Below, one piece after another: positions 20,107 to 52,367 of a stretch of 64,000 nucleotides of DNA (position 1 is the first letter of the stretch; every line of letters begins with the position of its first letter). The notes below the pieces were generated by a model. That model did no database searches, had not been told where the DNA came from, and was given only the letters and a program-made list of their open reading frames with translations. The translations under genes were made by a program, and so were the position numbers. Origin of the DNA: a virus; IMG/VR virus record IMGVR_UViG_3300021963_000025, positions 126,001 to 190,000 of that record. One strand, 5' to 3'.

Positions 20107-20134
20107 TTGTAATTAAAATAATATATAGTCTTAT

Positions 20135-21484
20135 ATGACAATTAACCTTAAACAAATAAGAGTATTTGATACTGATAATATTAAGCTTGATAAAATTAAT
20201 TATAATTTTGATCAGTTAATTGTCAATGGTGGAGGTCCTAAAGGAGCAATAGGAGTTGATGGACCACTAGGTGCACAAGGATATCAAGGTGCAATAGGAG
20301 TTCAAGGTGATAGAGGAGTTCAAGGAGTTCAAGGTGCCGATGCAGATTCTGCGGAATCATATTGGGAAGCAGTTCCTCAAGACCTATCGACTAGTGCAAA
20401 CACAGTTGCAACCCTATTTGCAAAACATCCAATTTCCGGAAATCCAGCAGATGCTGCAGTGGTAGGAGCCGGATATTTAGATGGAGATTTTGCATATACT
20501 AATCAACAAGGAAATGGATTACCAAACTACAAATGGGTTGTTAATAGAAAACAATCAAAGGTAGTTTCAAATATAAGATTTACAAGTGGAGATGTTCTAG
20601 GAAATGCATTTGATATATCTATGAATTCTAATGGTTCGTTATATGAATTGCATTTAGGTTTTATTGATAATCAAAATTCACAGTTAAATTTTCAAGCAAC
20701 AGAACATATTATTAGAAGTACTGCTGGTTCTGGAGATAATTTACTAAAAGTTTCTAATATTGGCGGAGAAATCGATGTTGATACTGTTTTTGAAAAACCG
20801 GTTAAATTTAACCAACTATTAAGTGTTGATAATTCAGGAGCAGATGTTAATAAAGTTGTAACTGCAATAGATAATACAGGCCAAATAATATTTAAAACGG
20901 CTACAGAACTTGGAGGTTCTGTTAAAGTTGGTACTATTATTTCTATATTGCCTTCAATATTTAGAGATGTTACTAATTTTATATATAATCAAACAATAGA
21001 TACTACATCAAATCCGGATGTACCAATACAAATAAGAATAGGTGCTGGTATAGGTAATTATGTTGGATGGTATGTATGTAATGGACAAGATTGGACTAAC
21101 GGTGCTCAAACAATTTCAGTTCCTGACCTTAATTCATTTTCATATCAAATCATATCAAATCCTATTTCAATCGATCCAAATAGTCAAGGATTTGTAAGCG
21201 TAACCAATAATGAAATACAATTAATTGGAGGTGCTGATATGATGGTTAATGCTGGAGAAAATGGAGTGAGCGGTCCATTATACGATATTAGTATTACAAA
21301 TACTTCAAATAATCCGGAAATTGCAACAAATAATTCAGGAAGTGCATTTAAAATTAAAAAGTTACCTCAAATTATTTATTTAGGAATTGATAATTTATAT
21401 TGGTCTCAAATAGGAACTGGACAACTTGCAGCAGCAGATTATAATCAATCCGACTATGCATTAACAGACTTTGATGCATCTTAA
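20135..21484 (+). CDS. Collagen-repeat tail fibre B
   Basis: A 449-residue paralogue of the neighbouring fibres. The anchor DNIKLDKINYNFDQLIVNGG is followed by about 40 residues of G-X-Y repeats (residues 32-72), then a shared beta domain including YKWVVNRKQSKVVSNIRF, the collar-type GWYVCNGQDW, and the conserved ending FKIKKLPQIIYLGIDNLYW. It lacks the extra C-terminal domains of fibres A and C, so it may be the minimal form. Probable trimeric receptor-binding fibre. Confidence 0.72.
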   Translation: MTINLKQIRVFDTDNIKLDKINYNFDQLIVNGGGPKGAIGVDGPLGAQGYQGAIGVQGDRGVQGVQGADADSAESYWEAVPQDLSTSANTVATLFAKHPISGNPADAAVVGAGYLDGDFAYTNQQGNGLPNYKWVVNRKQSKVVSNIRFTSGDVLGNAFDISMNSNGSLYELHLGFIDNQNSQLNFQATEHIIRSTAGSGDNLLKVSNIGGEIDVDTVFEKPVKFNQLLSVDNSGADVNKVVTAIDNTGQIIFKTATELGGSVKVGTIISILPSIFRDVTNFIYNQTIDTTSNPDVPIQIRIGAGIGNYVGWYVCNGQDWTNGAQTISVPDLNSFSYQIISNPISIDPNSQGFVSVTNNEIQLIGGADMMVNAGENGVSGPLYDISITNTSNNPEIATNNSGSAFKIKKLPQIIYLGIDNLYWSQIGTGQLAAADYNQSDYALTDFDAS

Positions 21485-21508
21485 AAATAAAAATAAAAAT
21501 TTAAAAAC

Positions 21509-22138
21509 ATGGCAGCATATAGTGATGTATTAAACTTAATTAACAGTTTACTAGCAAGTGGAACTGATATAACAGCAGCGGAACACAGACAGGTTGAAAT
21601 TGCTCTATTAGATTTTGCAGAAAGTCAATGGTTAACAGGTGATATTAAAGAAATTGATTGCACAGATGCTTATATTGCAGCTAATTTTGAATCAACAGGT
21701 CCAAATAAAGGAAAAGGAATAATAGGAACTGAAAGAGAAGGATGGGCTATTTGTAATGGATATAATGGAACAAGAAACCGAACAGGTAGAGTTTCAGTTG
21801 CATGGGGTGATGTAACTCCTCTAGGTACTGTAGGAGATGCTACAACTCAACCATCGATAGGAGCAGCAATAAATACTCCAGTTATATCTGGTAAAAAAGA
21901 CCATGTTTTATCAGTTAATGAGTTGCCAGCTCATAATCACGTTTTCCCAGGCGATGACCAATTAGCAGGTGCAAATAATATTGGTGGATGGACTAATAGA
22001 ACAACTGCTAATTTTAATTATGATGCATCTTCAGGAGGTGGAGGTGGAAAAATCTATAAAACATCAGACGCTGGAACTGGAACAGCGCATAATATTATGC
22101 AGCCATACATAGTTACCCTTTTTATCCAAAAACTATAG
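21509..22138 (+). CDS. Collar-domain short tail fibre tip
   Basis: A 209-residue protein with a phage tail-collar C-terminus: GWAICNGYNGTRNRTGRV, then the metal-ligand style ELPAHNHVF, a glycine-rich loop (SSGGGGG) and the typical closing AHNIMQPYIVTLFIQKL. The His-X-His and second His resemble the histidines that bind metal inside T4-type short-fibre or long-fibre tips. It has no collagen repeat and only a helical N-terminus for attachment. It lies between fibres B and C and may pair with one of them or act as an independent receptor-binding tip. Confidence 0.72.
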   Translation: MAAYSDVLNLINSLLASGTDITAAEHRQVEIALLDFAESQWLTGDIKEIDCTDAYIAANFESTGPNKGKGIIGTEREGWAICNGYNGTRNRTGRVSVAWGDVTPLGTVGDATTQPSIGAAINTPVISGKKDHVLSVNELPAHNHVFPGDDQLAGANNIGGWTNRTTANFNYDASSGGGGGKIYKTSDAGTGTAHNIMQPYIVTLFIQKL

Positions 22139-22140
22139 TA

Positions 22141-22190
22141 GCATGCCTTCTAAAAATTAGAATATATAATCTAAATATAGATAGGTATGC
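22141..22190 (+). repeat. Inverted repeat covering the start of fibre C
   Basis: GCATGCC (22141-22147) can pair with GGTATGC (22184-22190), seven pairs with one G-U. The ATG of the fibre gene (22187) is inside the right arm, and a late box lies between the arms. Confidence 0.4.
22161..22170 (+). promoter_or_regulatory. Late promoter box AATATATAAT for fibre C
   Basis: A near match to GATATATAAT, 26-27 bases before the ATG. Confidence 0.4.
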
Positions 22191-24514
22191 CAATTACTCT
22201 CAAACATATAAACATTTCAGATTCTGACTCTATTAAACTTGACAAAGTCAATTTTAATTTTGATCAGTTGGTTGCAAACGGAGGAGGACCTCAAGGACCT
22301 CAAGGTTCTATTGGACAAAGTGGACCGCAAGGAACAACCGGGCAACAAGGTGTTCAAGGACCTATAGGAACTACAGGATTTCAAGGACCTGAGGGTCCAG
22401 TTTCTGAAAATTACTGGAAAAGAATACTTCCTGGGGCTATTGATGCTGACACTATAATTCCTAAACATGTTTCAACTAATCAATTCTCTCCAGTTGTAAA
22501 TATTGGATATATTGAAAATGATCCGCAATATGGAGCAAAATTACCATTAATTTCCGGAAAAACCCCATATCAATGGTTGATTCATCGAAAACAATATTCA
22601 ATTTCAAATTTAAGACTCTTAAATGACGATGTTCCAGGGAATGCTATTGATTTTAGAATAGAGAAACTTGCCGGAAAAGACCAATTAACTATAGGTTTTC
22701 TAGATTATGAAAAAGCGGTAAGTACTTATAAAGCATCTTCAACTCATTTTAGAGGTTCAAGTACTTCACCGGATAGTTTGGTGGTTGATGATATTACTGT
22801 GACATTTAAAACAAATACGGAATTTAATTCTCCAGTTATTATTAAAGAGCAGTTATTTATTGAAAATGCAAATGCAGACACTGATAAAATTGCTACTTCA
22901 GAAGACGCAACAGGATTGGTTAAATTTAAAAGTGTACAAGAGCTTGGAGGAACAGTTCCTTATGGTACAATAGTTTCAATATTACCTTCTATATTTGCGG
23001 ATGATAATAATTTTGTTAATAATGAACAGTACTTTCCAGGTAATTCTTCACCAATATCAATATCGGTAGGTAAAGGTGTTAATGACTATGATGGATGGTA
23101 TCTTTGTCATGGATATACCTGGACGGACGGTACTACTGATTATCTAGTTCCTATGTTAGGAAATTTTAACTACTCTATCGATGATAATCCGTTTTCAACA
23201 GATCCATCAAGCCAAGGTTCTGCAAGTACTTCAAATTTTAGAACACATATTACTGGAGGTTCAGATATAGATATGATTGCTACTTCGGTTCCAACATTGG
23301 TTTATAATATTACAGCAACTGTAGAGACTTCAAGTGTTAATGTTGACCCTGGAACTGGAACAATTTTTAAAATTAAACAATTACCTCAAATTATTTATTT
23401 AGGTAGAAACGATTTATATTGGTTTGACCTGGGAACTGGACAGGCACCTTCAGTACCATTAACATGGTTACTAGATGATGCAAACACAACTGCGTCAAAA
23501 TTAAATCCAGATCCTTACTCATTAGGTACAATAAGTAATCAACCTGCAGGTGCTTCATATTTGTTTACGACTGATGTTGAGGCCCCAAGCGGCTATTATT
23601 GGTCAACATTGCCAACTACCGGAGATATTGGAGGACTACCAGCATGGGCTACAGTTACTGGTATAACTTTAAGTTCTGGTACATATCCGACTACAATTAG
23701 TATAACAATTAATGTGAGTTCGCATCCAGCAGCTTCGCCAAATCCATCGCCAGAAACCATAAGTATTGATACTTCTACTTTTATCAGTCCATCTGCAGCG
23801 ACAATACAATTAGAAATGACTGGATCTCCTGGAAATACAACAGTAATATCTCCGCCATTTATTCAAAATATTAGTTACAATTTTGTAACTGGATATACTT
23901 ATACAATAGTATGTAATGCAAATTCTGGATATTATTTTGCTCCAAACCCAGCAACAAGTATAACTTCATTAGTTGGAGGAGCTACATATACTATAAATAG
24001 TGTAATATATTCAAATCCATTAACGATAGGGTATAGTACTCTAACGATTAATGTTACTATAACAGGAGTAACATTGGGAACTACTAATCTAACATACGGT
24101 TTAACTGTACCTGTTTTTGCAAGTGCACCTAAAATAACATATAACCCATCAGGATATACAATAGATGGTCCATCAATGGTTGGAGGTAGCTCTCTTAGTG
24201 TATCAAAAACAATTACTGTAGAAAATAATACAGGTGGAAATGTTTATATATGGGCAGGTATTAATCAGTTTTATACAGGTAGCGGAACAACAGCTTCAAT
24301 TTCAGGAGGATATGAATCTTTAGGAGTTTTTAACTTACCAGTTTCTGCTAGTACAACAACATCATATTACTATAGCACCTCTTCAAAACTATTATCGAAT
24401 GGACAATCAGTTATTGCTAATTTATATAGAGCGGCGACTACAGATTCACATCACACTGTACAATTATGGTGGTCTAGTACTATTGGAGGAACAAAACAAA
24501 TTATAACCACTTAA
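22187..24514 (+). CDS. Collagen-repeat tail fibre C with extra Ig-like C-terminus
   Basis: A 775-residue paralogue of fibres A and B: anchor DSIKLDKVNFNFDQLVANGG, G-X-Y repeats (about residues 32-74, GPQGPQGSIG and on), shared beta domain, GWYLCHGYTW and FKIKQLPQIIYLGRNDLYW near residue 415. Residues about 420-775 are a Thr/Ser-rich beta extension with Ig-like pattern, absent from fibre B, and probably a host-specific tip. The ATG lies in the right arm of a short inverted repeat, with a late promoter 27 bases upstream. Confidence 0.72.
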   Translation: MPITLKHINISDSDSIKLDKVNFNFDQLVANGGGPQGPQGSIGQSGPQGTTGQQGVQGPIGTTGFQGPEGPVSENYWKRILPGAIDADTIIPKHVSTNQFSPVVNIGYIENDPQYGAKLPLISGKTPYQWLIHRKQYSISNLRLLNDDVPGNAIDFRIEKLAGKDQLTIGFLDYEKAVSTYKASSTHFRGSSTSPDSLVVDDITVTFKTNTEFNSPVIIKEQLFIENANADTDKIATSEDATGLVKFKSVQELGGTVPYGTIVSILPSIFADDNNFVNNEQYFPGNSSPISISVGKGVNDYDGWYLCHGYTWTDGTTDYLVPMLGNFNYSIDDNPFSTDPSSQGSASTSNFRTHITGGSDIDMIATSVPTLVYNITATVETSSVNVDPGTGTIFKIKQLPQIIYLGRNDLYWFDLGTGQAPSVPLTWLLDDANTTASKLNPDPYSLGTISNQPAGASYLFTTDVEAPSGYYWSTLPTTGDIGGLPAWATVTGITLSSGTYPTTISITINVSSHPAASPNPSPETISIDTSTFISPSAATIQLEMTGSPGNTTVISPPFIQNISYNFVTGYTYTIVCNANSGYYFAPNPATSITSLVGGATYTINSVIYSNPLTIGYSTLTINVTITGVTLGTTNLTYGLTVPVFASAPKITYNPSGYTIDGPSMVGGSSLSVSKTITVENNTGGNVYIWAGINQFYTGSGTTASISGGYESLGVFNLPVSASTTTSYYYSTSSKLLSNGQSVIANLYRAATTDSHHTVQLWWSSTIGGTKQIITT

Positions 24515-33552: not shown

Positions 33553-36030
33553 ATGGCACAGGTTAACAAAATCTCTTCATTTAAAAGTTTTACTGAAGTT
33601 AAGAATCAGGAAGCTTCTATGAAACTAAGAGAAGAAAACAATGCAAAAAGACAGGAAACTGTTGGTAAAATTGGAGCAATCCTTGACGAAATGGGATTAA
33701 CTTCTCTATCTGAATTAGACGAAGAGAAAAAACAAGCCCTAATCAACAAAATGTTTGGAAGCGTTTCAGAAGACGAAGCAGAAGAAATTGAAGACGAACT
33801 TAATAAATTAGGAGAACCTAAAAAATTAGAAGAGGGAAATGCATTTATTTTTGCGGCTAGTAAAGCAAAACAAGATGGAAAAACCGAATTCGAATTTAAT
33901 GGTAAAAAATATAAAGTAACCATTAAGAAAGATACAGGTCTTAAAGAAGGTAATGCTTTCGGAGATGCTGTTAAAAAAGCAAAAGAGGCTGGAGAGAAAG
34001 AATTTGAATTTGAAGGAGAAACTTACAAAGTTGAAGAGTCTATCGATGAGGCCAAAAGAACTAAATTCACTGGTAAAACAGCGCACGATTTATATACTCA
34101 AATTGGTGGAAAACCAGTAGAGGTATTTGTTAAAAACGACTGGTACTCAGTTAACCCTTCGGAATTAAAAGACGACAAAGGTGATTATTTCACTGGATAT
34201 ACAAAAGACGGAAGTGATTACGAATTTTACCTAAAAGATATTGATTTTATCCAAGAATCTTTAAATGAAGGTCGTGTTAAAGCAGCTACCCTACTACAAG
34301 AATTAGTTGATGGAAATACTTCTAGAGCAGAAGGTATTAAAATGTCAAAGGGTTTAGCTGAACATTATTTATATTGGTTAAGAACTTCACCTTACGGTAA
34401 GAAAAATGCTGACTTACCTCTTTACATGTTAATTAAAGCAAGTTTTGTTTGGGGAATTGAAAGACAATTAGACCCTAAATTAAAAGTAGAACTTGAGGCC
34501 TTAAAGGGTAGCATTAAAGAATCAGTAGAATCTATTGATGAAGCTCGTTCAATTAATAAAATCCAATACGACTGGTCTAAACTAACAACTACGATGGCTG
34601 CAACTGCACAAAATTGGAAAGCTGCCGAAGGATCCGCTAAAGAAATGTTACTTGGAAAATTAAAAGAGATGACTGCTCAAAAGAAAGCTCTAGAAGCTGA
34701 ATTGGATGCTGCTATTGCTGACAAAGACAAAGACATCGAATTGGTAGTTTCTGAAGCATTCTTTAGATTACCAAAAGATGTTATTGGAAACGAATTATAC
34801 TTAGCAACTCAAAATTTATCTAACCTATACGGTAGAACTTCAGCTGGAAATGATATTGACACTGGAGTTATTGATACAATTATTAAAGCCCTAACAACTG
34901 TTAAAAAATCTGTTAAGAAATTTAATAACAAAGAAGAGGTTGTAGGAACTGTTTATGAAGGAGAAGTTAATGAAGCCGATATGACCAAGTTTTACGATGG
35001 TTTTATTGTACTAGATTCAAAGGCAAAAAAGACATATAAGTTCAAGTACGTTAAAGGAACTAGTAATGTTAATGTTGAAAATGCGGCTATTGACAAATTA
35101 GTAAAAGCAACTGGAGAATCAAGAGCAAATTTCATGGTTCATGGTTTTGTTAAAAAAGGTGAATGGAACTCAGATAAAACTGAAGTATTTGAATCTCAAG
35201 TTAATGAAGCTGAAAAATTTAAAAGTACTAAAGACTTTGAAGAGTTCTTAGAGGAAATCGATGGCATGCCAGAGGTTAGAATAAAAAGAATCATGGGTAA
35301 AGATTACATCGATACTCCAGGAGGTTTCAGAGATGAAGCAGATGATTACGATAATGACATAGTAGAGTATACTCTTTCTAACATGGGTCGTAAAGATTTT
35401 GAAGCACTTAAAGCATGGTGGGAAAACAATGTTCAAGAATCTTTAAATGAAGGTGAAGTAAAATCTGATGATGAATTTAAAGAATATGCAATGGCTGTTT
35501 TGAAAAAAGCATTTGGAGATGACTTTGATGAGGCAAAAGCTGGAGAAGTAGTTGATGGAATTCTTAAAAAATGCGGTGATGATTACGGAGCTGCAGTTGG
35601 AATGTTAACAAGTTCATTAGGAGAATCAGTAGTTACTGAAAGAGAAGAAACACAAATAGGTACTCATAGATACCAAGGAAAATCATATCCTTTATATACA
35701 GATGACGAACACAATCATTATATCAAAGTAAATGGTAGAATAATTGAAGTTGATGAATCAGTAGTTACTGAAGGTTTTGATGCAAACTACTGGGAAGACT
35801 ATCATGATAGTGGAGAATCTGGAAAAACAAAAAACCCAACTGGTATGCAAGTACAACAACAAGTATCAGGTTGTGTAGAAGATTGGAATGATAACAATGA
35901 AGTTGGACCTGAAAATGAAGTTACATCATCTGGAGAAAAGAAAGTCTTAAAACTTGCAAAAGAATTCGTTAAAGCAAAAGGATGGATTTCATCTGATGTT
36001 ATAGATGCTATGATAGCCCAAGAATCTTAA
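33553..36030 (+). CDS. Putative head-packaged polyprotein with about ten prohead-protease-type sites
   Basis: An 825-residue acidic protein. Sites of the hydrophobic-X-Glu then Gly/Ala type lie after E94 (KLEE), E132 (LKE), E166 (SIDE), E239 (SLNE), E330 (SIDE), E474 (VNE), E552 (VNE), E633 (SLNE), E696 (VVTE) and E740 (VVTE). The first two internal pieces (95-132 and 133-166) are tandem copies of one module, EGNAF..A..KAK..G..EFEF.G..YKV. A leader-like start (ISSFKSFTE) is followed by lysine-rich text. T4 gp21 cuts internal head proteins at (L/I)XE sites, so this looks like a precursor processed into many small packaged domains. No enzyme motif was seen. An intrinsic terminator follows. Confidence 0.7.
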   Translation: MAQVNKISSFKSFTEVKNQEASMKLREENNAKRQETVGKIGAILDEMGLTSLSELDEEKKQALINKMFGSVSEDEAEEIEDELNKLGEPKKLEEGNAFIFAASKAKQDGKTEFEFNGKKYKVTIKKDTGLKEGNAFGDAVKKAKEAGEKEFEFEGETYKVEESIDEAKRTKFTGKTAHDLYTQIGGKPVEVFVKNDWYSVNPSELKDDKGDYFTGYTKDGSDYEFYLKDIDFIQESLNEGRVKAATLLQELVDGNTSRAEGIKMSKGLAEHYLYWLRTSPYGKKNADLPLYMLIKASFVWGIERQLDPKLKVELEALKGSIKESVESIDEARSINKIQYDWSKLTTTMAATAQNWKAAEGSAKEMLLGKLKEMTAQKKALEAELDAAIADKDKDIELVVSEAFFRLPKDVIGNELYLATQNLSNLYGRTSAGNDIDTGVIDTIIKALTTVKKSVKKFNNKEEVVGTVYEGEVNEADMTKFYDGFIVLDSKAKKTYKFKYVKGTSNVNVENAAIDKLVKATGESRANFMVHGFVKKGEWNSDKTEVFESQVNEAEKFKSTKDFEEFLEEIDGMPEVRIKRIMGKDYIDTPGGFRDEADDYDNDIVEYTLSNMGRKDFEALKAWWENNVQESLNEGEVKSDDEFKEYAMAVLKKAFGDDFDEAKAGEVVDGILKKCGDDYGAAVGMLTSSLGESVVTEREETQIGTHRYQGKSYPLYTDDEHNHYIKVNGRIIEVDESVVTEGFDANYWEDYHDSGESGKTKNPTGMQVQQQVSGCVEDWNDNNEVGPENEVTSSGEKKVLKLAKEFVKAKGWISSDVIDAMIAQES

Positions 36031-36106: not shown

Positions 36107-36655
36107 ATGAAACACATACAATTATTCGAACAATTTATTAACGAAGGAAAAAATGACTACGTTAAATATGTAAAAGACGCATCTAAAAAAATATTTGCAC
36201 GCGGTGGTAATGGTCAAAATGTACTTGATTACTTAACAGACTTAGGAAAATATATTGATAGTACAATTGACCCAAAGGCAGACCAATGGTATGGCCCACA
36301 AACACCATCACTATTCCAAGAATTGGTTAATAATATGGGACTCGACGATATTGAACATAATAACATATCAGGTAATAAAAGCAGTAAAAAACCAGAAGCA
36401 TTTAGAGGTGCAAGTGATTTAATTGCCGTTACAAATGATGCAATTAAACGTGCTAAAACTAATGGAGGAAATGACGCTGGATGGGGTAAAGCCGCATTAG
36501 AACTTGCTGGACACCTTCAAGCTTATAAAGTAGGTGCTGGTAATGCTGGTCCTGGAGAAGACGGATTTTATACTGCTCCAACCTTAAGTACATTTACAAG
36601 ATTAGTTGATGATATTGCGATGGAAAATATCAAAAAGAATAGAGTAGCAAAATAA
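36107..36655 (+). CDS. Leader-bearing putative packaged protein with internal duplication
   Basis: A 182-residue protein starting MKHIQLFEQFINE, with predicted cut after E13 before G14. The ATG at 36107 is preferred to one at 36056, because the latter lies in the terminator hairpin and lacks the leader. The rest consists of two similar halves: A.K...NGGN, aromatic/GP loop, then TPSLFQELVNNMGLDDIE in the first and APTLSTFTRLVDDIAMENIK in the second. Function unknown; the duplication suggests a two-domain peptide- or DNA-binding protein. Confidence 0.65.
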   Translation: MKHIQLFEQFINEGKNDYVKYVKDASKKIFARGGNGQNVLDYLTDLGKYIDSTIDPKADQWYGPQTPSLFQELVNNMGLDDIEHNNISGNKSSKKPEAFRGASDLIAVTNDAIKRAKTNGGNDAGWGKAALELAGHLQAYKVGAGNAGPGEDGFYTAPTLSTFTRLVDDIAMENIKKNRVAK

Positions 36656-36660
36656 TCGAT

Positions 36661-37950
36661 ATGAAAACAAAAATCCTTAATTTTAATCAATTCATAACTG
36701 AAAGGTATGAAGTTAAATTGAATGAGCAATTATTATTAGAAGGTGGAGCCGCTGGACATATGTCGCATCCATTCGATAATAATGACCTAACATTTGGAGA
36801 CTTCAAGAATATGATTATTGGTGGACTTCAAGGTGAATTAAACTTCGAAGAGGAACCTACTGAAAAAACAGACGGTCAAAATGTATTTGCAACAATTCAA
36901 AATGGCGAGGTTAAATTTGCCAGAAATAAAACTGAGTTGCAAAACCCTATGAGTCTTAAGGATTTCCAAAATAAATTTGAGGGACATGCTAGCAAACTGG
37001 TACAAGATACCTTTCAATTTGCAGCCGCTGATTTAGCAACCCTGCTTATAAAGTTACCGGCTAAAACGCAAGAGGAAGTGTTCCAGAATGGGCTGAACTT
37101 CATGAACATGGAGTTGATATATTCTGCTAACCCTAATGTTATTCACTATGATGTTGATGTAATTCAATTTCATGGTATCAAGAAAACTGATGGTGCTGGA
37201 AATATAGTTGGAGATGACAATAGTGCGGCAAAAAGTGTTGCGGGAGTTCTTAAATCTCTAAATGCTGATGTCGGAAAAACATTTACAATAATTCCCCCAC
37301 AAGTTATTAAACTACAAAAAGATATAAACTTCGAAGAGAATCAAGCTAAATTCTTAGGAAAACTTGAAGTTCTTAGAAAGAGATATAATTTAACCGATGC
37401 TGATGCAGTTGCCCGTTACCATGAAATGTGGTGGAGAGAGCAAATTGAAGCCGCATTTGGTGACCTACCGCAAAACATCAAAGAGGGTCTATTACTTCGT
37501 TGGGCTTATGACGACAAGAAAACCTTAAATATGCGTTCATTGGACAAAGAATTAACTCCAGCTCAAGCTGAAGCAGTTAAGAAATTTGACAAAGAGGACG
37601 TTAAAAAGAAATTCAAGGAAAACATTCGACCATTTGAAGACCTTTTCTTAGAATTAGGAAGTGTTATCTTAAAGAACGCAAGTAATTTTGTTGCTGCTTC
37701 ACCAGACAAAGAAATGCAAAGGCTACATAATGAAATCAGAACTGAAGCTGACAAGATTAAACTTAATGGAGACCTTACTCAAATCGACAAAGTTGCAAAA
37801 GAACTTGACCGATTAGAGAGAATTGGAGGAATCCAGTCTATTATACCGACTGAAGGTATTGTATTTTCATACAAAGGACACATGTACAAATTAACAGGAA
37901 CATTCGCTGCTATTAATCAGTTGATGGGAATTATAAAATACGGAAGATAA
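36661..37950 (+). CDS. RNA-ligase-like nucleotidyltransferase with packaging leader
   Basis: A 429-residue protein. Its N-terminus MKTKILNFNQFITE is leader-like, with further sites at NE22 and LLLE27 before GG. Ligase motifs follow: motif I EKTDGQN with catalytic lysine K69, a downstream FARNK, motif III around MELIYSANP (E151), motif IV TEGIVF (E398) and motif V YKLTG (K410). That is the order of the covalent nucleotidyltransferases of the Rnl2-type RNA ligase group. A long helical insertion (about 220-390) separates motifs III and IV. It probably forms an enzyme-AMP and joins or repairs RNA. The leader suggests it enters the cell with the DNA. Confidence 0.6.
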   Translation: MKTKILNFNQFITERYEVKLNEQLLLEGGAAGHMSHPFDNNDLTFGDFKNMIIGGLQGELNFEEEPTEKTDGQNVFATIQNGEVKFARNKTELQNPMSLKDFQNKFEGHASKLVQDTFQFAAADLATLLIKLPAKTQEEVFQNGLNFMNMELIYSANPNVIHYDVDVIQFHGIKKTDGAGNIVGDDNSAAKSVAGVLKSLNADVGKTFTIIPPQVIKLQKDINFEENQAKFLGKLEVLRKRYNLTDADAVARYHEMWWREQIEAAFGDLPQNIKEGLLLRWAYDDKKTLNMRSLDKELTPAQAEAVKKFDKEDVKKKFKENIRPFEDLFLELGSVILKNASNFVAASPDKEMQRLHNEIRTEADKIKLNGDLTQIDKVAKELDRLERIGGIQSIIPTEGIVFSYKGHMYKLTGTFAAINQLMGIIKYGR

Positions 37951-37951
37951 A

Positions 37952-38272
37952 ATGAAACACATTAAACTATTTGAAGAGCATATAAACGAGGCTAATGATA
38001 AACCATCATTAGATTCTTCGACAGGATTAATTTACTATTTTGATATACCTTTCACAACAGAGGATATTGAAGAGATTTTAGCATCTAGCAAATCTATATT
38101 AAATGCAAAATTTACTCCAAATAAACAATTTGATATTCAACCAATGGTTTTTATTAAAGATAAAGTTAATGGTGGAGAACACACTTTTAGTGTTGCACAA
38201 ATTGGAATATTAGGAGCATTTTACGATAAGAATAAAAACAACACCGCATCCCGAAAAGATTTTACTAATTAA
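37952..38272 (+). CDS. Small leader-bearing putative packaged protein
   Basis: A 106-residue protein starting MKHIKLFEEHINE, with a predicted cut after E13 before A14. The mature part is a single small alpha/beta domain (FTTEDIEEILASSKSILNAKF, then HTFSVAQIGILGAFYD). No family was recognised. It begins one base after the ligase-like gene stop and likely shares its transcript. Confidence 0.6.
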   Translation: MKHIKLFEEHINEANDKPSLDSSTGLIYYFDIPFTTEDIEEILASSKSILNAKFTPNKQFDIQPMVFIKDKVNGGEHTFSVAQIGILGAFYDKNKNNTASRKDFTN

Positions 38273-38283
38273 AAAACAAAGAG

Positions 38284-40155
38284 ATGGCATTACAAAAATT
38301 AAGAGAGTATTTTAACGAAACCAATAGAGAAACCTTTATTGATATGTTAAAAAATAGAGTGTTAGTAACTGAGAAGGTTGCAGCACCTACATTTCTTGTT
38401 AAAAGAAATCTTGATGGGTTTGAATATTTTAAATCTTCAAATTCAGACAAATTAAATCTAGTTGACCGAACTATTATCTCTCTATATGAGATTGCAATCA
38501 ATTACATGCAAAGTTTGCCAAATTCGGTTAAAGGTCAAATGCCAATTGATTGGAGATTTGGTTTTGAATACCTTCCAGAAGTTAAAGTATCTAAGATTAA
38601 ATACGGAAAGACACCAAAAAACAATTTAATATTAACTCATATTCAACAAGTTGGAGAGGGTAATAAAGTTAAGAAAACCATTAATGACCCAGTTATCTTA
38701 AATAAATGGGCAAAAATTCTTGATGTTCAACAACCAAGCGTATTATTTGATGGCTATTTATCTCAATTACAAAGAGATGAACTTCTTGAATTATTGGCAA
38801 TGGGCGATAGACAATTTAGTGAATCATTCGACTATTTACCAGAAACTAAAGACAAAACAAGTTTCACCGCTAAAATAGTTAAACTTTTTAATCCAAATGC
38901 ATTCGAAACTACACTAAACGCAGATATTGAAGAGGAATTTGATGGATTGGTAGTTAATTTTATCGATGGAAACTCAATAAAATCTTTTAAATTAGAGGAT
39001 TTTATCAGAAAAAATGGAATTGATACATCTTCAAGCCACATGTACCAAATTGCAGTGACTGACTTTTTAGAATTTATAACTCAATTTAATATCGATGATA
39101 TACAACTTGAAGACGAGAGAGCTGACTATCGATACCTTGAAATAATGTCGATTATATTTAATGAATATGTAGACAAACACTCTTCAAAATATATTGGAGT
39201 TAATTTTGAAAGCGCTGAATTTTCATCAGCAGATTCTTTTAAATTAAATCTAAAATATATTACCGATGAAAAAACCCTGAAATATGTTTCTAACGATATT
39301 TTAGCGGAACTTTATAAAATGATTTTAGGTTCTTTTAGAAAGAAAAGAACTAAGACATCAGACTTAATAGATGAGGACACTATGAAACGTATGAATGAAA
39401 TAATCGAAAAAATCAACGAAAAAATATTTGTTGAAAACACCGATGAAAATGCAATTTATGACTATCAAAATTTCATGTTGCGCGATAAAATCAAGTCTTC
39501 AGTTAACTTAAATGAGGCACTTAAACTTACTCATGTTGAACAAGGAAAACAACCAGTAAATATGTTTGTTGGAAGATTCCAGCCATTTACATTAGGACAC
39601 GCCAAAGTTTTAGAGACTATTCACAAAGAGAATGGTTATCCAGTTGTTGTATTCTTAGTTAAAGCAAAAACCAAAAAGAAAGGTGATGAATTTAGCAGAC
39701 CATACGACGAGAAGACTCAAATCAACATGTTCAATCATGTTAAAAAGCAATACCCATTCTTAAAAGAAATATTTGTAATTCCAACTGGAGGTATCGACAT
39801 TATGTTTAATGAAATGAGACCTAAATATGAACCAGTACTTTGGGGAACGGGAAGCGACAGAATGACAAGTTATGGTTATCAAGTTAATAATGATGCTTAT
39901 AGAGACCAATTGAACTGTAGAGCTGATTTTGGACTTTTTGAAATTCCAAGAACTGACGATGATATTTCGGCCACTGCAGTTAGAAATGCTCTATTAGATG
40001 GTAATGAAAAACAATTCCAGAATTTAACACCAAAGGCAGTTCATGGAATGTATAATGAACTAAAATCTAAAATTGAAGACTCTATGGGAGTAGTTGCTGA
40101 AAATGTTTCTACTGAAATTATGACATTCGAACAATTTATTAACAAAGATATATAA
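38284..40155 (+). CDS. Fusion of ligase-like domain and NMN-adenylyltransferase-like domain
   Basis: A 623-residue protein. Residues about 28-240 look like a nucleotidyltransferase/RNA-ligase fold: TEKVAAPTF (K31), RFGFEYLP (E95), EEFDGLVV (217-224), then SFK (K236), but with a weakened motif I. A helical middle ends in VNLNE, a protease-type site after E411. The C-terminal domain starts VGRFQPFTLGH (430-439), the HxGH-type motif of NMNAT/cytidylyltransferases, and has ISATAVRNAL (561-570), the matching ISxTxxR. The protein ends TFEQFINKDI, a copy of the packaging leader at the wrong end. It may rebuild NAD and join nucleic acid. Confidence 0.6.
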   Translation: MALQKLREYFNETNRETFIDMLKNRVLVTEKVAAPTFLVKRNLDGFEYFKSSNSDKLNLVDRTIISLYEIAINYMQSLPNSVKGQMPIDWRFGFEYLPEVKVSKIKYGKTPKNNLILTHIQQVGEGNKVKKTINDPVILNKWAKILDVQQPSVLFDGYLSQLQRDELLELLAMGDRQFSESFDYLPETKDKTSFTAKIVKLFNPNAFETTLNADIEEEFDGLVVNFIDGNSIKSFKLEDFIRKNGIDTSSSHMYQIAVTDFLEFITQFNIDDIQLEDERADYRYLEIMSIIFNEYVDKHSSKYIGVNFESAEFSSADSFKLNLKYITDEKTLKYVSNDILAELYKMILGSFRKKRTKTSDLIDEDTMKRMNEIIEKINEKIFVENTDENAIYDYQNFMLRDKIKSSVNLNEALKLTHVEQGKQPVNMFVGRFQPFTLGHAKVLETIHKENGYPVVVFLVKAKTKKKGDEFSRPYDEKTQINMFNHVKKQYPFLKEIFVIPTGGIDIMFNEMRPKYEPVLWGTGSDRMTSYGYQVNNDAYRDQLNCRADFGLFEIPRTDDDISATAVRNALLDGNEKQFQNLTPKAVHGMYNELKSKIEDSMGVVAENVSTEIMTFEQFINKDI

Positions 40156-40179: not shown

Positions 40180-42285
40180 ATGAATTTTAATCAATTCCTA
40201 AACGAAAATACTTCTTCATTTGGCGGAAGAGCTGGACTTACTAAAGCTGAAACACTTAAAATTGCACAAAAATTTGCAGATGCCGCTGCTAGCGTTGACC
40301 CTGAAAAAGGAAAATGGAGTGTAAATAAAAGAACCTTAGAAGAGGATGGGTTTGACTTAGACTATAATGACGAGGAATACGATGGTGGTTCATACAATAT
40401 CTACAAAAATGGTAATGTTGTAAACATGGCTCTTCGTGAAAATCCAGTTTTAGGTAAAATTACTGACGATATTAAAACTATTGCAAAAGGTTTTAAAAAG
40501 ATGATGGCAAATGAATCAGTTACTAATGAGGCTAAATTAGTTTTAGGTTTATCAACTAACAATTATCCAGCTGGAACAATTGGTAGATATCGTATAGAAT
40601 CTTCTGTAATTAACCTAAGAAAAGTTGCCGATTTATCAAAAGACTCATGGAAAAAATATTCAAGAGCATTTGCTGACGATGAAATTGGTTTTGAAAAATC
40701 AAGTGATAGAAAAGAGGCATTAGACGCTATTCAAAAATCATTTGACAACGGACATAATGATATTAGAGAGTTTGGTTTAAATGAATCTGTAGTTAACGAA
40801 AGAAACATCACAATCAAAAGACAATACACTGATAAAAACCCTGCAGTTACTGTAGGTAAAGCTGCTAAAATTCGTAATAGAATGTTAGAGGCTATTAAAG
40901 ATGGTAAAATTTCTCAAGAGGAATTCGATACAATTCTTAAAGAAATGACAACAGATTCTAAAAGATGGTTAAGAAGAAATGCTCAATGTTTTAATGTATC
41001 TGAAGATGGAATAGCACTATCAAAAACAGGTTCAAGAATCCTTAAAAATGTAATGGTTTCAGAAGCAACCACAAAGGCACCAAAGATTTGGGTTCCTGGA
41101 GGATTTGATAAAGAAATTTCAAAATACCCAAACCAAAAAATCACAAGAAAAATTGTATTAGATGCTGCACTTAAATGGGATGTAGATCCGGAAGATGCAA
41201 TTAAATACGTTGAATACGCTTGGGTTATTGACTTAGACGAAAATAAAAATAACAACGATATGAAAACAAAATTTATCTACGAATCTTTCCAAGAATTTGT
41301 TGAAAACAAACTAAATGAAGGTACCTTAAATGAGGCATTTAAAAGTGCTAAATTGGCTAACCTTTTTTCAGTAGGAAGTGCTAGCACTAAAAACTTAGCA
41401 GGAGCTTTCTATAATTTCTCAAAATTAGCGATTGACAAAATCGAAGATTATGACATTATTGAAATGGAACCTCAAGCTGCACGTAAAGAAAAAAGAGCAA
41501 ACGCTGTTTATTTTTATGTAGTAAATAACCAAAAAGTAAATCCATACGCTGAAACTAGTAACCCATCTACTTGGAATAATGGACTTATTCAGTCAAATAC
41601 TCTATTAGCAATAACTAATGGTCAAAATGAATGGTACTCAACAGCATACAATAGATATTCAGGAGGTTCTGAAACTTTGAAACTCGCTACTTCAAGAGAA
41701 GCTGCCGCAGGATTTGATAAAAGAGACTCTAAAAGATACGATGGTTCAGGAATTACTTCTATCACCAAAGTTGCAGAATTAGCCGATATCGCTTACGTTA
41801 TTGACTTAGACGTTCTTAGAGCAAGATATTCTACACAATCTTTAACATTTAAAAGATCTGAAGATAAACGTGGAGCTACTGCTTTCCAAAGCGACAAAGA
41901 CTTTAAAGCGGCGAACAAAGCACGTTATAACGAAATCTTAGCGCAAAAAGCAGCTGCAATGCCAATTGATGCTGTAGTATTAGGAGCTATTGATACTCTT
42001 GCTACTCAAATTAAAGATGCTCTAACTACAGGAGAAAAAGGAAGATATGGAGAACTTATTGTTGGATTAGACCCTAAAGGTAGAGAAATCAAAATGAGCG
42101 ATGCTTCTAACTTAATGAGAAACATTTTGGACGAGTATAACAGATACGTTGGATATGTTGTTCAAAGTGAAAGTGAAGAAAAAGCTGGATATAGTTCAAA
42201 ATTCTACGAAAGTAGATTAAAAGAAAGCGCTAAAACAATCACTGACTACGTTAAGAAAGTAGAGGCTAAAAATTACGCTTGGTAA
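40180..42285 (+). CDS. Putative packaged polyprotein formed from two fused leader proteins
   Basis: A 701-residue protein beginning MNFNQFLNE. Further protease-type sites follow E117 (VTNE), E207 (VVNE), E380 (KLNE, before G) and E385 (TLNE, before A). At residue 361 (base 41260) a second complete leader occurs inside the reading frame: MKTKFIYESFQEFVENKLNE. It is preceded by an A-rich stretch (GACGAAAATAAAAATAACA) that resembles the normal gaps between genes here. This looks like two ancestral leader genes fused by loss of a stop codon. The mature parts, lysine-rich domains with DDEI and ITSITKVAELA segments, were not recognised. An internal start at 41260 could still be used. Confidence 0.65.
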   Translation: MNFNQFLNENTSSFGGRAGLTKAETLKIAQKFADAAASVDPEKGKWSVNKRTLEEDGFDLDYNDEEYDGGSYNIYKNGNVVNMALRENPVLGKITDDIKTIAKGFKKMMANESVTNEAKLVLGLSTNNYPAGTIGRYRIESSVINLRKVADLSKDSWKKYSRAFADDEIGFEKSSDRKEALDAIQKSFDNGHNDIREFGLNESVVNERNITIKRQYTDKNPAVTVGKAAKIRNRMLEAIKDGKISQEEFDTILKEMTTDSKRWLRRNAQCFNVSEDGIALSKTGSRILKNVMVSEATTKAPKIWVPGGFDKEISKYPNQKITRKIVLDAALKWDVDPEDAIKYVEYAWVIDLDENKNNNDMKTKFIYESFQEFVENKLNEGTLNEAFKSAKLANLFSVGSASTKNLAGAFYNFSKLAIDKIEDYDIIEMEPQAARKEKRANAVYFYVVNNQKVNPYAETSNPSTWNNGLIQSNTLLAITNGQNEWYSTAYNRYSGGSETLKLATSREAAAGFDKRDSKRYDGSGITSITKVAELADIAYVIDLDVLRARYSTQSLTFKRSEDKRGATAFQSDKDFKAANKARYNEILAQKAAAMPIDAVVLGAIDTLATQIKDALTTGEKGRYGELIVGLDPKGREIKMSDASNLMRNILDEYNRYVGYVVQSESEEKAGYSSKFYESRLKESAKTITDYVKKVEAKNYAW

Positions 42286-42286
42286 G

Positions 42287-42727
42287 ATGAAACACATTAA
42301 ACTATATGAAGAGTTTGTAAATGAGGCTACTAATGAAATTACATTAAATGACTCTGAAGTAGATACAATTTTTAATGAAATTGTCAGACTTACAAATATT
42401 GCAAAAGAGAGAGGATATGTTCCTGGCGTAGTTGCAGCTGGTGCTATTAAAACACCTAGTTCAAACGATTCTATGGTAGATGCTTCTGGTGAATTTGGAG
42501 AAAATCCAAATAACAAAAAATTTAAGATTTCAAATATTACCGCAAATAATTTTCAGATACTTGCAACTATTACATCAACAGACGGAAAACTAGTATGTTA
42601 CATTACCTTTCCTTATGATGTTAAAAAGAAATCTATTTGGTCAAAAGAAGTAAACATGCGTTTTTATAACGGAAAAGAGTCTGATTTTTCAAAAGTTAAA
42701 AGAAATCACGAAACAATAGTATATTAA
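42287..42727 (+). CDS. Small leader-bearing putative packaged protein
   Basis: A 146-residue protein beginning MKHIKLYEEFVNE, with predicted cut after E13 before A14. The mature part has a helix (DTIFNEIVRLTNIAKERG), a flexible Ser/Asn loop, and a compact beta domain (FQILATITSTDGKLVCYITFP). No family was recognised. It starts one base after the preceding stop. Confidence 0.6.
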   Translation: MKHIKLYEEFVNEATNEITLNDSEVDTIFNEIVRLTNIAKERGYVPGVVAAGAIKTPSSNDSMVDASGEFGENPNNKKFKISNITANNFQILATITSTDGKLVCYITFPYDVKKKSIWSKEVNMRFYNGKESDFSKVKRNHETIVY

Positions 42728-42728
42728 A

Positions 42729-43238
42729 ATGAAACACATACCTACATTCGAAAGTTTTGTTAATGAATCCCTAAATGAAGCCTGGGGAATGGATGACATT
42801 GTAAAAATCCATTTTGAAACTGACCCTGATAAACAAGAGGAGCTTAAAAGAGCCTATGGTAAAAAAACCGGTGCAATGTCACGTACTAGTCAAATCGAGG
42901 CTGCTGATTATGCATTGGCTAAATATAGAAGACAAATTGGTTATGACAATGGTAAGTCAGGTAGCGCAGGTTTAACTGACGTATTTATTCCAAGTTCATC
43001 AATGGCCGCATTTTCTACAGTAGGTAATGGACCACATTCTAAGCCTAAAAAATGGAACCAAAAGGAATACAACAAATGGATTAAAGATATGGCTGGAGAC
43101 GGTGGAGCTAACCATGCATATGATATGGCACAAAATGCTAAATTTGAACCAGGACTTATTGATTGGGTTAAGAGAAATGTAGCTTATGGTGAAAAACCAT
43201 TAGACAGAATTCAATGGGACATCGAAGCCTATTCATAA
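42729..43238 (+). CDS. Small leader-bearing putative packaged protein
   Basis: A 169-residue protein beginning MKHIPTFESFVNE, with sites after E13 and E17 (SLNE before AWG). The mature part is helical and polar, with RRQIGYDNGKSGSAGL and a tryptophan-rich end (WNQKEYNKWIKDMAGDGG, then VKRNVAYGEKPL). Function unknown. It sits in a run of five similar genes. Confidence 0.6.
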   Translation: MKHIPTFESFVNESLNEAWGMDDIVKIHFETDPDKQEELKRAYGKKTGAMSRTSQIEAADYALAKYRRQIGYDNGKSGSAGLTDVFIPSSSMAAFSTVGNGPHSKPKKWNQKEYNKWIKDMAGDGGANHAYDMAQNAKFEPGLIDWVKRNVAYGEKPLDRIQWDIEAYS

Positions 43239-43251
43239 TAAGATAACCAAT

Positions 43252-43788
43252 ATGAAATACATAAAACTATACGAAGACTTCGTAAATGAAAAAGCATACC
43301 GATTAACTGGACCTTATGCCTCTAAAGGTATTATTGGTAAAGTTATGCAGGCCTTTAAAAAAGAAATTGAAAAAGTTACTTTTGAAGGAGAAGTCAAAGA
43401 TACTTTAGAACAAGTTAATGGCGCTTGGGGAGATTTTAGTAAAGATGCCCAAAAAATCATTTTAGCCGAAGTTCAAAAGGCAGTAAAAGACATGGACCAA
43501 GTTGTCTATGTTCATGTTCAAGGATTAAACAAAACATGGGAGCCAGACACAGTCAATCAATTAAATAGAGACGGTGCACCATTACATATTTCAATTCTTG
43601 GAGACTTTGTAATTAATGTTGGTTTCATGGATGATGTTGATGGTAACAAATTTAAGAATAAATTAGGAGGTATGTTAAATACCGCAATTGCAGGTGGAGA
43701 AGACATTTATGGTACTTTTGACGCTGAAATTGGAGAAAATAACGTTGAAATCAGAGGTTCTGAGATTATTCAAATAGACGAAAAATAA
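43252..43788 (+). CDS. Small leader-bearing putative packaged protein
   Basis: A 178-residue protein beginning MKYIKLYEDFVNE; the residue after the site is K rather than G or A, so cleavage is less certain. The mature part is an alpha/beta domain, with a helix (KAVKDMDQVVYVHVQGLNK) and a beta C-terminus (ENNVEIRGSEIIQIDEK). No family was recognised. Confidence 0.6.
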   Translation: MKYIKLYEDFVNEKAYRLTGPYASKGIIGKVMQAFKKEIEKVTFEGEVKDTLEQVNGAWGDFSKDAQKIILAEVQKAVKDMDQVVYVHVQGLNKTWEPDTVNQLNRDGAPLHISILGDFVINVGFMDDVDGNKFKNKLGGMLNTAIAGGEDIYGTFDAEIGENNVEIRGSEIIQIDEK

Positions 43789-48308: not shown

Positions 48309-49496
48309 ATGAACAAAATTAAAGTAGGAATTATTGGAACTGGAAATTGTGCCAAATCATTAGTCGAAGGTGTACAGTATTACACAGAGAACCCAAATGA
48401 TATTACTGGGATGATGAAATCCGACATCGGAGGTTACAAAGCAGAAAATATTGAATTTGTTTGTGGATTCGAAATTGATGAACGTAAAGTTAATCAAACG
48501 TTAGGATACGCACTTAAACAAAGACCAAACTCTGCATGGGACATTGTTGATGTTATTCACTCTGAAGCGCCAGTTTACGAGGCTCCAGTAATTGATGGTT
48601 ATGCAGCCCTTATGGATAACTATCCAGAACAAAACCGTTTCTTAGTTGATGAAAAATTAAGAAACTCTACAGACATGAATCGTACTGATTGGACACCTAA
48701 AAAATCACGCGAATGGAAAGACCAAATCATTGCTAAATTAAAAGACCATGGTGTTGAAGTATTGATTAACTACTTACCAGTAGGTTCTCAAAAAACAACT
48801 GAATTCTGGGCTGAAATTTGTCTTGAAACAGGAATCTCTCTAGTAAACTGTATTCCAGTATTTATTGCCTCTGACCCAGCTTGGGAGCAAAGATTTATCG
48901 ATGCTGGTATTCCAATCATCGGAGACGATATGCGTTCTCAATTTGGAGCAAGTATTCTTTCTCAAATGTTACAAGAACTTGCCTTTGAAAGAGGACATCA
49001 TGTAAAAGCCCACATCCAAAGAAATGTTGGAGGTAACACAGACTTCTTAAATATGGAAGATAAATCTCGTCTTGCTTCTAAAAAGATTTCTAAAGAAAAC
49101 GTTATCCGTGCACAAAATGAAATTCGTGGAATTTCAACTGAAGATTCATTCCTACATGCAGGTCCTTCTGAGTATATCGCATTCTATGGTGATAACAAAG
49201 TTGCTAACTTCCGTTTAGAACTTACAGGATTCGGTGGAGCACCAGTTCTTTTTGATGCTCAATTAAGTGTACAAGACTCTCCAAACTCAGCTGGAGTAGT
49301 AATCGACGCAGTTCGTTATTTAAGAGTTGCAAGAGAATTAGGAGTTGTAGGAGCCTTAAGAGGTCCTTCAGCGTTCACACAAAAAACTCCACCAGATCAA
49401 ATGATGTTTGCTGATGCTGTTTATGAGTGTACTGAATTGGCTGCAAGACGCTTAACAGATTCTACAAGAAAACAGTTAGCTGCTAAAAAAGCCTAA
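48309..49496 (+). CDS. ino1: Myo-inositol-1-phosphate synthase
   Basis: A 395-residue NAD-dependent enzyme that cyclises glucose-6-phosphate to inositol-1-phosphate. It has the family motifs: Rossmann loop GTGNCAKSLVEG (residues 10-21), NYLPVGSQKTTEFWAE, NCIPVFIASDP, GDDMRSQFGAS and GGNTDFLNM. Length and motifs fit the bacterial/archaeal type (Mycobacterium Ino1 about 367). It has its own TTGAAAC-class promoter and strong terminator, so it is a monocistronic unit. It is also rich in CGT arginine codons, suggesting high expression. Its likely use is to feed inositol lipids or a modified polymer. Finding this in a phage is unusual. Confidence 0.88.
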   Translation: MNKIKVGIIGTGNCAKSLVEGVQYYTENPNDITGMMKSDIGGYKAENIEFVCGFEIDERKVNQTLGYALKQRPNSAWDIVDVIHSEAPVYEAPVIDGYAALMDNYPEQNRFLVDEKLRNSTDMNRTDWTPKKSREWKDQIIAKLKDHGVEVLINYLPVGSQKTTEFWAEICLETGISLVNCIPVFIASDPAWEQRFIDAGIPIIGDDMRSQFGASILSQMLQELAFERGHHVKAHIQRNVGGNTDFLNMEDKSRLASKKISKENVIRAQNEIRGISTEDSFLHAGPSEYIAFYGDNKVANFRLELTGFGGAPVLFDAQLSVQDSPNSAGVVIDAVRYLRVARELGVVGALRGPSAFTQKTPPDQMMFADAVYECTELAARRLTDSTRKQLAAKKA

Positions 49497-50667: not shown

Positions 50668-51858
50668 ATGACTTCAAATAAACACTTGCTTGAGATGGAT
50701 TCTCAAGCACTGTTGGATTTAATACCAACAGAAAAAAGACAACTTATTCGAGATTTCGTTCATGAAATGAATCGAAGAGAGTATGAGGTTCGTTTTGCAA
50801 AAACATGCACCTTCGATACATTTAGACATCGAGAAGGCACTGGAAAAGAAGACACATTTGGACATGGATTTATTGTAGAGGGACGTTCAGTTCCATACTT
50901 CCACCCAAATCGTTCTTTTCACGATGAGATTATTTGGTTAAATGAAAATGTGTTCTACAATCCAGACTGTACATTTGAGGACCGATTAATTAATGCCGCA
51001 ATTGTAAAATTCTATGGGCCGTCAAACACAATTAGTCTATTAACGCATGACACTGGATTTCCATTCGTTAAATATGACAGATTAGTTAATGACGAGAAGT
51101 ATGTTCTACAGTGTATGGTTAATATGGAGAATGCAAAAAGACGTGGAGAAAAGATTTATGGTACTACTGAATTACGAACAAGTCTTCAAACTGAATCGAG
51201 AAACCATGCAAGAGTAATTAAAACTCCTTATGATGTATTAATTGGTGCCGAACCGGATCCAACTAGACAGAGTCGAACCAGCGATATGTTCTTTTGGTTT
51301 ACCCTACTAGGTCCGCGTTTTGCAGAATTTTATTCTAAGAAGCCGACAATGGAAGAGTCGTTTGATTTCCTAACATCACATCGAGGAATTGGAAACTATT
51401 ATGGTTACCACTTTAGTACCAACCTTGCCCGAATGCCTGAAATCGGTACTCCCGACCTATTGCGACCTAATGCTCCTTTTGGAAATCTTAACGAAGATGA
51501 TGACTTTGTTGCACCCGGAGTTGGAGCGATGACCACAATCAACTGGTTCTATGAACACTTAGGTTTTTCAATCTCGTCTGACGTTGGAGCCAAGGTTATC
51601 AGACAAATCCGGGACACTCAACACGAGTTCTTTGATTTTACTGGAGAAAATCTTGACTATTTAAAAGTAATCACCGAGACCGGAAGATTTACAACGTTTG
51701 GTACAGAAATTAGTTGTTGTCAGTTTGGTGTATTTTTACGATTGAGAGATAGTAAAAAGATGGCCCTAAACCGTGCAAATGCTCCAATTTCTAAAGAACA
51801 AATCGGTGAATCATGTGAAGTAGATGAACCAACATTTAAAAGTTCATGTTTATTTTAA
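50668..51858 (+). CDS. Thymine-hypermodification protein (5-hmdU DNA kinase helical / aGPT-PPlase-like)
   Basis: A 396-residue protein. It has the helix-hairpin-helix-like SHRGIGNYYGYHFSTNLARM (about residues 237-256) and the following APGVGAMTTINWFYEH (282-297), the layout of the family described as alpha-glutamyl/putrescinyl thymine pyrophosphorylase or 5-hydroxymethyl-dU DNA kinase. Such proteins act on 5-hmdU in DNA to start further decoration of thymine. The assignment is by motif memory. It lies directly before an all-alpha dUTPase/dCTPase and DNA polymerase, matching a DNA-modification role. It ends SSCLF. Confidence 0.5.
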   Translation: MTSNKHLLEMDSQALLDLIPTEKRQLIRDFVHEMNRREYEVRFAKTCTFDTFRHREGTGKEDTFGHGFIVEGRSVPYFHPNRSFHDEIIWLNENVFYNPDCTFEDRLINAAIVKFYGPSNTISLLTHDTGFPFVKYDRLVNDEKYVLQCMVNMENAKRRGEKIYGTTELRTSLQTESRNHARVIKTPYDVLIGAEPDPTRQSRTSDMFFWFTLLGPRFAEFYSKKPTMEESFDFLTSHRGIGNYYGYHFSTNLARMPEIGTPDLLRPNAPFGNLNEDDDFVAPGVGAMTTINWFYEHLGFSISSDVGAKVIRQIRDTQHEFFDFTGENLDYLKVITETGRFTTFGTEISCCQFGVFLRLRDSKKMALNRANAPISKEQIGESCEVDEPTFKSSCLF

Positions 51859-51899: not shown

Positions 51900-52367
51900 A
51901 TGGCAAATATAGACAATCAATGTAAAGACCTGGAAGTTAAAGACTTCTATTCAGATTCGACCACTCACTTGGCGGATATAATGGAAAACCAAAAGAAAAT
52001 GCAGGAGCAGACTTATGGTTTCAATTTTGAAAATATGTCAATTAGAGAAATTATGAACTTTTGGCATGTTAATACGCATGCAGTAGTTGATGAAATTCAC
52101 GAGATGACTGATGCCCTTGGAGGTATTAAAGATGGTAGTGGAAATGCAGTTTGGAAATACTGGAAAAAAGACTTTTCAAAGTATGAAACTATGAAAATCA
52201 GTGACCTATCTGAAGAGGACAAAAAAGAACTTTATATGGAATGGGTAGACATACTACACTTCTTTATAAATTATGCGTCTTCAATCGGATTAGATGCAAA
52301 AACAGCTTACAATTATTACTTCGCGAAAGCAGAAGAAAATGTTAACCGTCAAAAAAGAGGATATTAA
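51900..52367 (+). CDS. 56: All-alpha dUTPase/dCTPase (gp56-like)
   Basis: A 155-residue protein of the all-alpha NTP pyrophosphatase group that includes T4 gp56. Metal-binding E65xxE68 (DEIHE) and E114xxD117 (EWVDILHFF) are visible, and it ends ENVNRQKRGY, typical of dimeric dUTPases. It would hydrolyse dUTP and/or dCTP so that only the wanted nucleotides enter DNA. Its stop overlaps the polymerase start (TAATG). Confidence 0.72.
   Translation: MANIDNQCKDLEVKDFYSDSTTHLADIMENQKKMQEQTYGFNFENMSIREIMNFWHVNTHAVVDEIHEMTDALGGIKDGSGNAVWKYWKKDFSKYETMKISDLSEEDKKELYMEWVDILHFFINYASSIGLDAKTAYNYYFAKAEENVNRQKRGY

Follow-up and report, generated by a model that had tools for sequence, protein, structure and literature searches.

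A putative multi-cargo polyprotein with head-protease-type linkers in a T4-superfamily phage

Does a single phage gene supply many small proteins to the virion head? The question is raised by an intact open reading frame at 33553-36030 (+ strand, 825-residue product) of the window, by which we mean the whole 64,000-nucleotide stretch analysed here, positions 126001-190000 of a 200-kb record (G000) with 273 predicted genes.

Cleavage-type motifs and predicted domains of the 825-residue product

The first-pass annotation had placed hydrophobic-X-Glu sites after residues 94, 132, 166, 239, 330, 474, 552, 633, 696 and 740, and every one of these positions proved exact, as did the near-identical linker text it described: ESLNEG at 239 and 633, ESIDEA at 166 and 330, and ESVVTE at 696 and 740. 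An eleventh boundary, absent from that list, lies at residue 401 (VVSE/A; here and below, a slash marks the putative cut). All 11 boundaries have a hydrophobic-X-Glu motif with Glu at P1, the motif of gp21/S77 substrates. The pattern [LIVMF]xE[AGS] occurs 19 times in the protein against 5.1 expected from composition shuffles, and [LIV][NDTS]E[AG] 8 times against 0.64; neither count was attained in any of 5000 shuffles, and the protein has the top motif excess of the 273 predicted genes in the record. Most sites are doublets of the form hydrophobic-x-E/S(x)-hydrophobic-x-E, followed after the second cut by A or G (for example VEE/SIDE/A and IQE/SLNE/G), and 8 of the 19 doublet sites of the proteome sit in this protein. 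A further candidate, FDE/A at 660, lies between two predicted helices; its flanks are never separated in relatives, and it is probably unused.

AlphaFold2, run on 22 sequences, gave a model that is weak overall (mean pLDDT 62, pTM 0.22) and that places 10 of the 11 boundaries in segments with pLDDT below 50 (26% of the chain). Equally good placement is reached by 7 of 824 circular shifts, and 3 of 18 other LxE motifs fall within low-pLDDT segments; site 94 is the sole boundary outside such a linker. The model suggests that the protein is built from separate small domains.

Sequence and fold searches of the PDB and a search of BFVD returned nothing significant for the polyprotein. The window protein has no Pfam family and no PADLOC match, and PHROGs gave no match at E ≤ 0.001, only a weak one to phrog_19707 (E 0.0085). 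No relative of it was found by tblastn against INPHARED phages or in a scan of bacterial genomes; for a distant homologue (L029), the INPHARED search gave hits in streptococcal and cyanobacterial phages that are confined to about 110 aa. Among the 22 homologues there are weak and sparse matches to FliG_C (4 sequences, best E 9e-4), ZorD (one sequence, E 6e-4) and LmuA (one sequence, E 0.008), and phrog_1987 is matched in 4 (E 4e-16); none of these gives a function for the polyprotein. The missing family match is little telling, since internal proteins (IPs) are very diverse in any case.

Searches of the window protein with Pfam and PADLOC also revealed no embedded peptidase and no known polyvalent effector domain. 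This bears on the possibility that the chain is a 'polyvalent' protein, injected uncut, whose action or cleavage takes place in the host; multidomain proteins injected by phages are a known class (PMC5512222). For the 825-residue protein such a fate is highly improbable: it has none of these domains, its modules are short (about 34-94 residues), and an S77 protease works in the prohead, i.e. before injection. Polyvalent proteins likewise unite numerous small domains in a single chain of the injected type and have been likened to RNA-virus polyproteins (Iyer et al. 2017, PMC5512222), but they carry embedded or associated peptidases and recognisable effectors, whereas the 825-residue protein has no known domain and its boundaries match a head protease.

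Modules and their exchange among relatives

A scan of IMG/VR yielded 79 related loci. Modules were compared in the window protein plus nine homologues, near-full or long, each sequence being cut at the motif; this gave 23 module families that are inserted, deleted and reordered across these ten sequences. As far as each sequence reaches, a common backbone comprises the N-terminal domain, GNAF repeats and families 1, 2, 3, 5+6 and 7; the accessory modules between the backbone families differ among homologues.

In the window (all modules on the + strand), residues 1-94 (33553..33834) form the most conserved domain, with the end site KKLEE/GNAF. Two GNAF repeats follow: the first (residues 95-132, 33835..33948, module family 0) has the site TGLKE/GNAF, the second (133-166, 33949..34050) the doublet VEE/SIDE/A, and the copy number of the repeat differs among relatives. 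Residues 167-239 (34051..34269) carry the doublet IQE/SLNE/G. Family 8 (240-330, 34270..34542) is missing as a unit in L012 and L013, and the clean indel against L012 (residues 235-323 of the window protein) has both ends at sites. Family 1 (331-401, 34543..34755) ends at VVSE/A, and L007 has an additional module inserted exactly at this 401 boundary. Family 2 (402-474, 34756..34974; doublet VYE/GEVNE/A) is followed in relatives by accessory modules 9, 12 and 15. The accessory family 14 (475-552, 34975..35208) occupies a slot that holds other modules in L003, L004, L007, L010, L012 and L013. Family 3 (553-633, 35209..35451; doublet VQE/SLNE/G) belongs to the backbone and is found in all ten homologues compared, and families 5+6 (634-696, 35452..35640) always occur together. 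Family 18 (697-740, 35641..35772) is present in this phage only; a clean indel against L003 (691-735) has both ends on a site, and L002 and L012 have different modules in this slot. The C-terminal module, family 7 (741-825, 35773..36027; site VVTE/G), has high pLDDT.

Both ends lie within 3 residues of a site in 23 of 30 clean insertions or deletions, compared with a mean of 1.06 and a maximum of 6 in 5000 trials of random placement; clean indels are those with well-aligned flanks, and as sequence pairs share history, the events are not all independent and represent about a dozen different modules. An earlier indel count in which unrelated modules were forced into alignment gave noisy results, and the clean-flank count supersedes it. 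Modules 13, 15 and 16 occur in different order in L010 and L006. A gene fission in L006, inside a module and off-site, is possibly a frameshift or assembly error and was given no weight. Comparison of the aligned proteins shows gain, loss and relocation of whole modules at the sites, and this evidence is independent of knowing the protease.

A module of L010 (330-420), which L015 and L016 have too, shows homology (44% identity, E 5e-17) to the mature portion of a stand-alone protein with a capsid-targeting sequence (CTS), encoded at 36107..36655 by the gene that directly follows the 825-residue one in the window. Of the 46 families of stand-alone CTS genes in the loci retrieved, 9 have matches inside polyprotein-like ORFs. 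Judged by these matches, the same domains therefore occur both chained and as separate genes.

Exchange at linkers would also be seen in an uncut multidomain protein whose ESxxxEA linkers are only joints for domain shuffling by homologous recombination. Many inserted modules are flanked at both ends by identical linkers, and linker serines are encoded by TCN in 72 of 74 cases (453 of 587 for all serines), as expected if recombination spreads linker DNA; part of the linker similarity may indeed come from recombining DNA. Yet the motif is also present at boundaries 132 and 401, which lack the doublet, the hydrophobic and P2 positions of the linkers vary while Glu is constant, and the P3-P1-P1' pattern is the one seen both where the CTS ends in 26 other genes and in the motif reported for gp21. 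This match to the CTS cleavage signature makes an uncut, shuffled protein less likely, and we regard it as improbable. Cleavage and recombination joints are, moreover, mutually compatible.

Head protease and capsid-targeting genes

A T4 gp21-type prohead protease (Pfam S77, PF03420, E 5.7e-13) is encoded at 199029-199373 of G000 by a gene that runs off the contig end; upstream of it lie a gp20-type portal gene and a small gene whose start resembles a CTS. Relatives encode protease and scaffold as one fusion of 635 aa, and a Gp23-family capsid gene comes next. Among capsid proteins, the closest come from uncultured huge phages and from Prevotella Lak, Sphingomonas PAU and Tenacibaculum PTm1 phages. 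The S77 protease, the gp20-type portal and the Gp23-family capsid relationships assign the phage to the T4 superfamily; a Bacteroidota host is plausible. We note that the 635-aa protease-scaffold chain has many internal sites of its own (L082:8969-9667, also L093, L094 and L090), and that three close relatives, L099, L100 and L101 (G006, G005 and G007), have a second, shorter S77-type match (E 1.7e-8) at least about 84 kb from the main one. Elsewhere in the window, a family B DNA polymerase is split over two genes (52367-53764 and 59953-61149), separated by about 6 kb that includes ribonucleotide reductase and further genes; a myo-inositol-1-phosphate synthase (48309-49496) lies near a protein with a 5-hmdU DNA kinase-type helical domain (50668-51858), possibly related to DNA hypermodification; and three fibre-like genes (17761-24514) have collagen-type GPQGxxG repeats near the N-terminus.

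The main rival reading is a core or scaffold accessory like T4 gp22, gp67 and gp68, which are cut into multiple fragments that mostly exit the head (PMC9026906, PMC9958956); the 825-residue chain would then be cut at its sites, with most fragments being waste. Dense sites are also found in a scaffold, as the protease-scaffold fusion of PTm1, a gene annotated as such, has 21 against 3.2 expected. However, this phage group has a separate scaffold, fused to the protease in relatives, and the 825-residue gene lies after UvsW, some 37 kb away from the genes for portal and protease and outside the 20-21-22-23 cluster. Its sites fall between predicted domains, and its modules turn over like accessory genes and also exist as stand-alone CTS genes. 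The T4 accessories resemble it in being single chains with many prohead-protease cuts (putative in the 825-residue protein), but they are assembly factors whose pieces mostly leave, whereas here the sites part predicted domains and the modules are swapped as units. Because of the separate scaffold, the sites between domains and the cargo-like behaviour of the accessory modules, we prefer packaged cargo and consider core waste unlikely.

Genes with a CTS are frequent in this phage. The pattern [FY]xx[FYH][ILV]xE near the N-terminus is found in 28 genes against 0.64 expected from its internal frequency; a slightly different pattern gave 26 CTS genes, of which one or two are possibly chance matches, and most of them read like MKHIKLFEEFINE/A. 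Mutations in T4 IPIII assign residues 4 and 7 to targeting and residues 8 and 10 to processing, and T4 gp21 is reported to cleave after L/I-X-E (PMC9026906). The register here is that of T4 IPIII: an aromatic residue, a second aromatic at +3, P3 next and the P1 Glu two positions on. Among 109 distinct octamers at polyprotein boundaries, P3 is V, L or I in 99%, with P1 Glu and P1' A/S/G/R imposed by the search pattern; at the CTS ends, for which P1' was left free, P3 is I, V or L in 96% and P1' is mostly A, G or S. The P3-P1-P1' pattern is common to both. The N-terminus of the 825-residue protein itself, MAQVNKISSFKSFTEV, has a CTS-like SFxxF core (SFKSF) and lacks the processing Glu: in FKSFTEV, F10 and F13 are in register and P1 is Val. 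A CTS-like KDFEEFLEE, one of only 5 internal matches in the proteome, is found at 35224-35256 (residues 558-568), just inside module 553-633.

The 825-residue gene heads a tight gene cluster (gaps of 1-25 nt) that extends to 44338, and most of the members have a CTS. It contains, all on the + strand, the stand-alone CTS gene at 36107..36655 (MKHIQLFEQFINE/G; start inferred from 182-aa homologues), a 429-aa protein with the N-terminal CTS-like MKTKILNFNQFITE (36661..37950), a 106-aa CTS protein (37952..38272; MKHIKLFEEHINE/A), a second polyprotein of 701 aa (40180..42285), and three consecutive CTS genes (42287..43788, namely 42287-42727, 42729-43238 and 43252-43788) that start with MKHIKLYEEFVNE/A, MKHIPTFESFVNE/SLNE/A and MKYIKLYEDFVNE/K. 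The 825-residue gene is thus one of at least two polyprotein genes within a cluster of CTS-bearing genes. The cluster also holds a cytidylyltransferase-domain protein, a probable enzyme (38284-40155), with the targeting-like C-terminal end TFEQFINKDI. Outside it, a weakly matching ATP-grasp protein (56558-57640), also a probable enzyme, has the N-terminal CTS MVPIKLFEEFLYE. A further CTS-tagged protein (MKKIKLFEEFLNE/K; L083:2454-3020, i.e. G000 2454-3020) matches anti-CBASS Acb1 (PF23474, E 1.8e-7, above the curated cut-off), so that an anti-defence enzyme may be among the packaged head proteins.

The 701-aa protein shares the design of the 825-residue protein. It contains an internal CTS-like sequence (MKTKFIYESFQEFVENKLNE/G), and in the internal CTS-like MKTKFIYESFQEFVENKLNEG residues E368, S369, F370, F373, N384 and E385 do not vary across 19 sequences; this invariance suggests that the protein may have arisen by fusion of formerly separate CTS genes. 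Both ends are at strict sites in 5 of its 8 clean indels, against 0.21 expected, and the other 3 have linker ends of the ES..NE type in which P3 is not hydrophobic or the offset is 4 residues. In the predicted structure, most such sites lie within low-confidence stretches.

Proposed route into the head and relation to known systems

The explanation that we consider likely is a multi-cargo polyprotein that is drawn into the prohead core, cut into its domains, packaged and probably injected. The 825-residue chain would be made whole and would then enter the prohead core, probably via the SFKSF core of its N-terminal domain. After shell assembly, the gp21/S77-type protease would cut behind the Glu of the hydrophobic-X-Glu/(A/G/S) linkers, as the motif, the architecture and the presence of the protease indicate, and would set free some 12 small folded domains. 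Like T4 IPI-III and Alt, on which this step is modelled, the freed domains would stay among the DNA and be delivered with it. Since the linkers are interchangeable, recombination could add, drop or move cargo modules without breaking the chain. The first-pass annotation had proposed many small packaged peptides produced by head maturation. The module exchange, the linkers, the S77 protease and the CTS genes lend strong support to a polyprotein architecture of the head-protease type; the pieces, of about 34-94 residues, look like folded domains instead.

The likeliest job of the variable modules may be to block host defences. Of all steps in the proposal, this one is the least secure. In T4, the IPs are widely variable and inhibit specific GmrSD restriction enzymes (PMC12373910); together with the CTS-tagged Acb1 match they make delivered counter-defence the best guess.

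Already known are the internal proteins of T4, the fragmentation of scaffolds and polyvalent proteins. The 825-residue protein resembles T4 IPI, IPII, IPIII and Alt in the gp21-type protease of the phage, the Glu-ending motif, the CTS register and a non-essential, highly variable cargo (PMC9026906, PMC3012670). In contrast to the T4 internal proteins, which have one cargo and one N-terminal CTS per gene, it strings together about 12 modules separated by internal sites, and the processing Glu is missing from its N-terminus. For the ejection proteins of SPN3US and phiKZ, which have long propeptides, a gp21-related protease cuts after Glu, and some propeptides are cut repeatedly (PMC10052503); there, however, the multiple cuts strip propeptides (N-terminal in head proteins, C-terminal in the protease) and do not split a chain into many domains. 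The searchable literature, whose coverage leaves out most subscription journals, describes no head-protease polyprotein with exchangeable cargo. In the cultured phage PTm1 (AP019524), ORF-082 (65267-66457; 396 aa) has 11 protease-type sites against 1.7 expected and resembles a small, unrelated polyprotein, which suggests that the design is found in a cultured phage too, with unrelated modules. A second PTm1 protein (171574-172902) has 13 protease-type sites against 2.8 expected.

We lean slightly towards the wider proposal that many uncultivated T4-superfamily phages have such cargo polyproteins, with at least about 10 injected proteins per gene and with linkers that serve as universal joints by which cargo can pass from phage to phage and switch between the chained and the stand-alone state. 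If true, a DNA phage would use the polyprotein strategy of RNA viruses, obtaining many injected proteins from one gene at a stoichiometry set by the chain, and the protease linkers would constitute a natural modular packaging system. Cutting in silico after hydrophobic-X-Glu/(A/G/S) linkers would provide a simple, testable rule for phage head cargo, and the modules read from sequence in this way would amount to an inventory of small proteins, probably with counter-defence roles, that go unrecognised in family databases.
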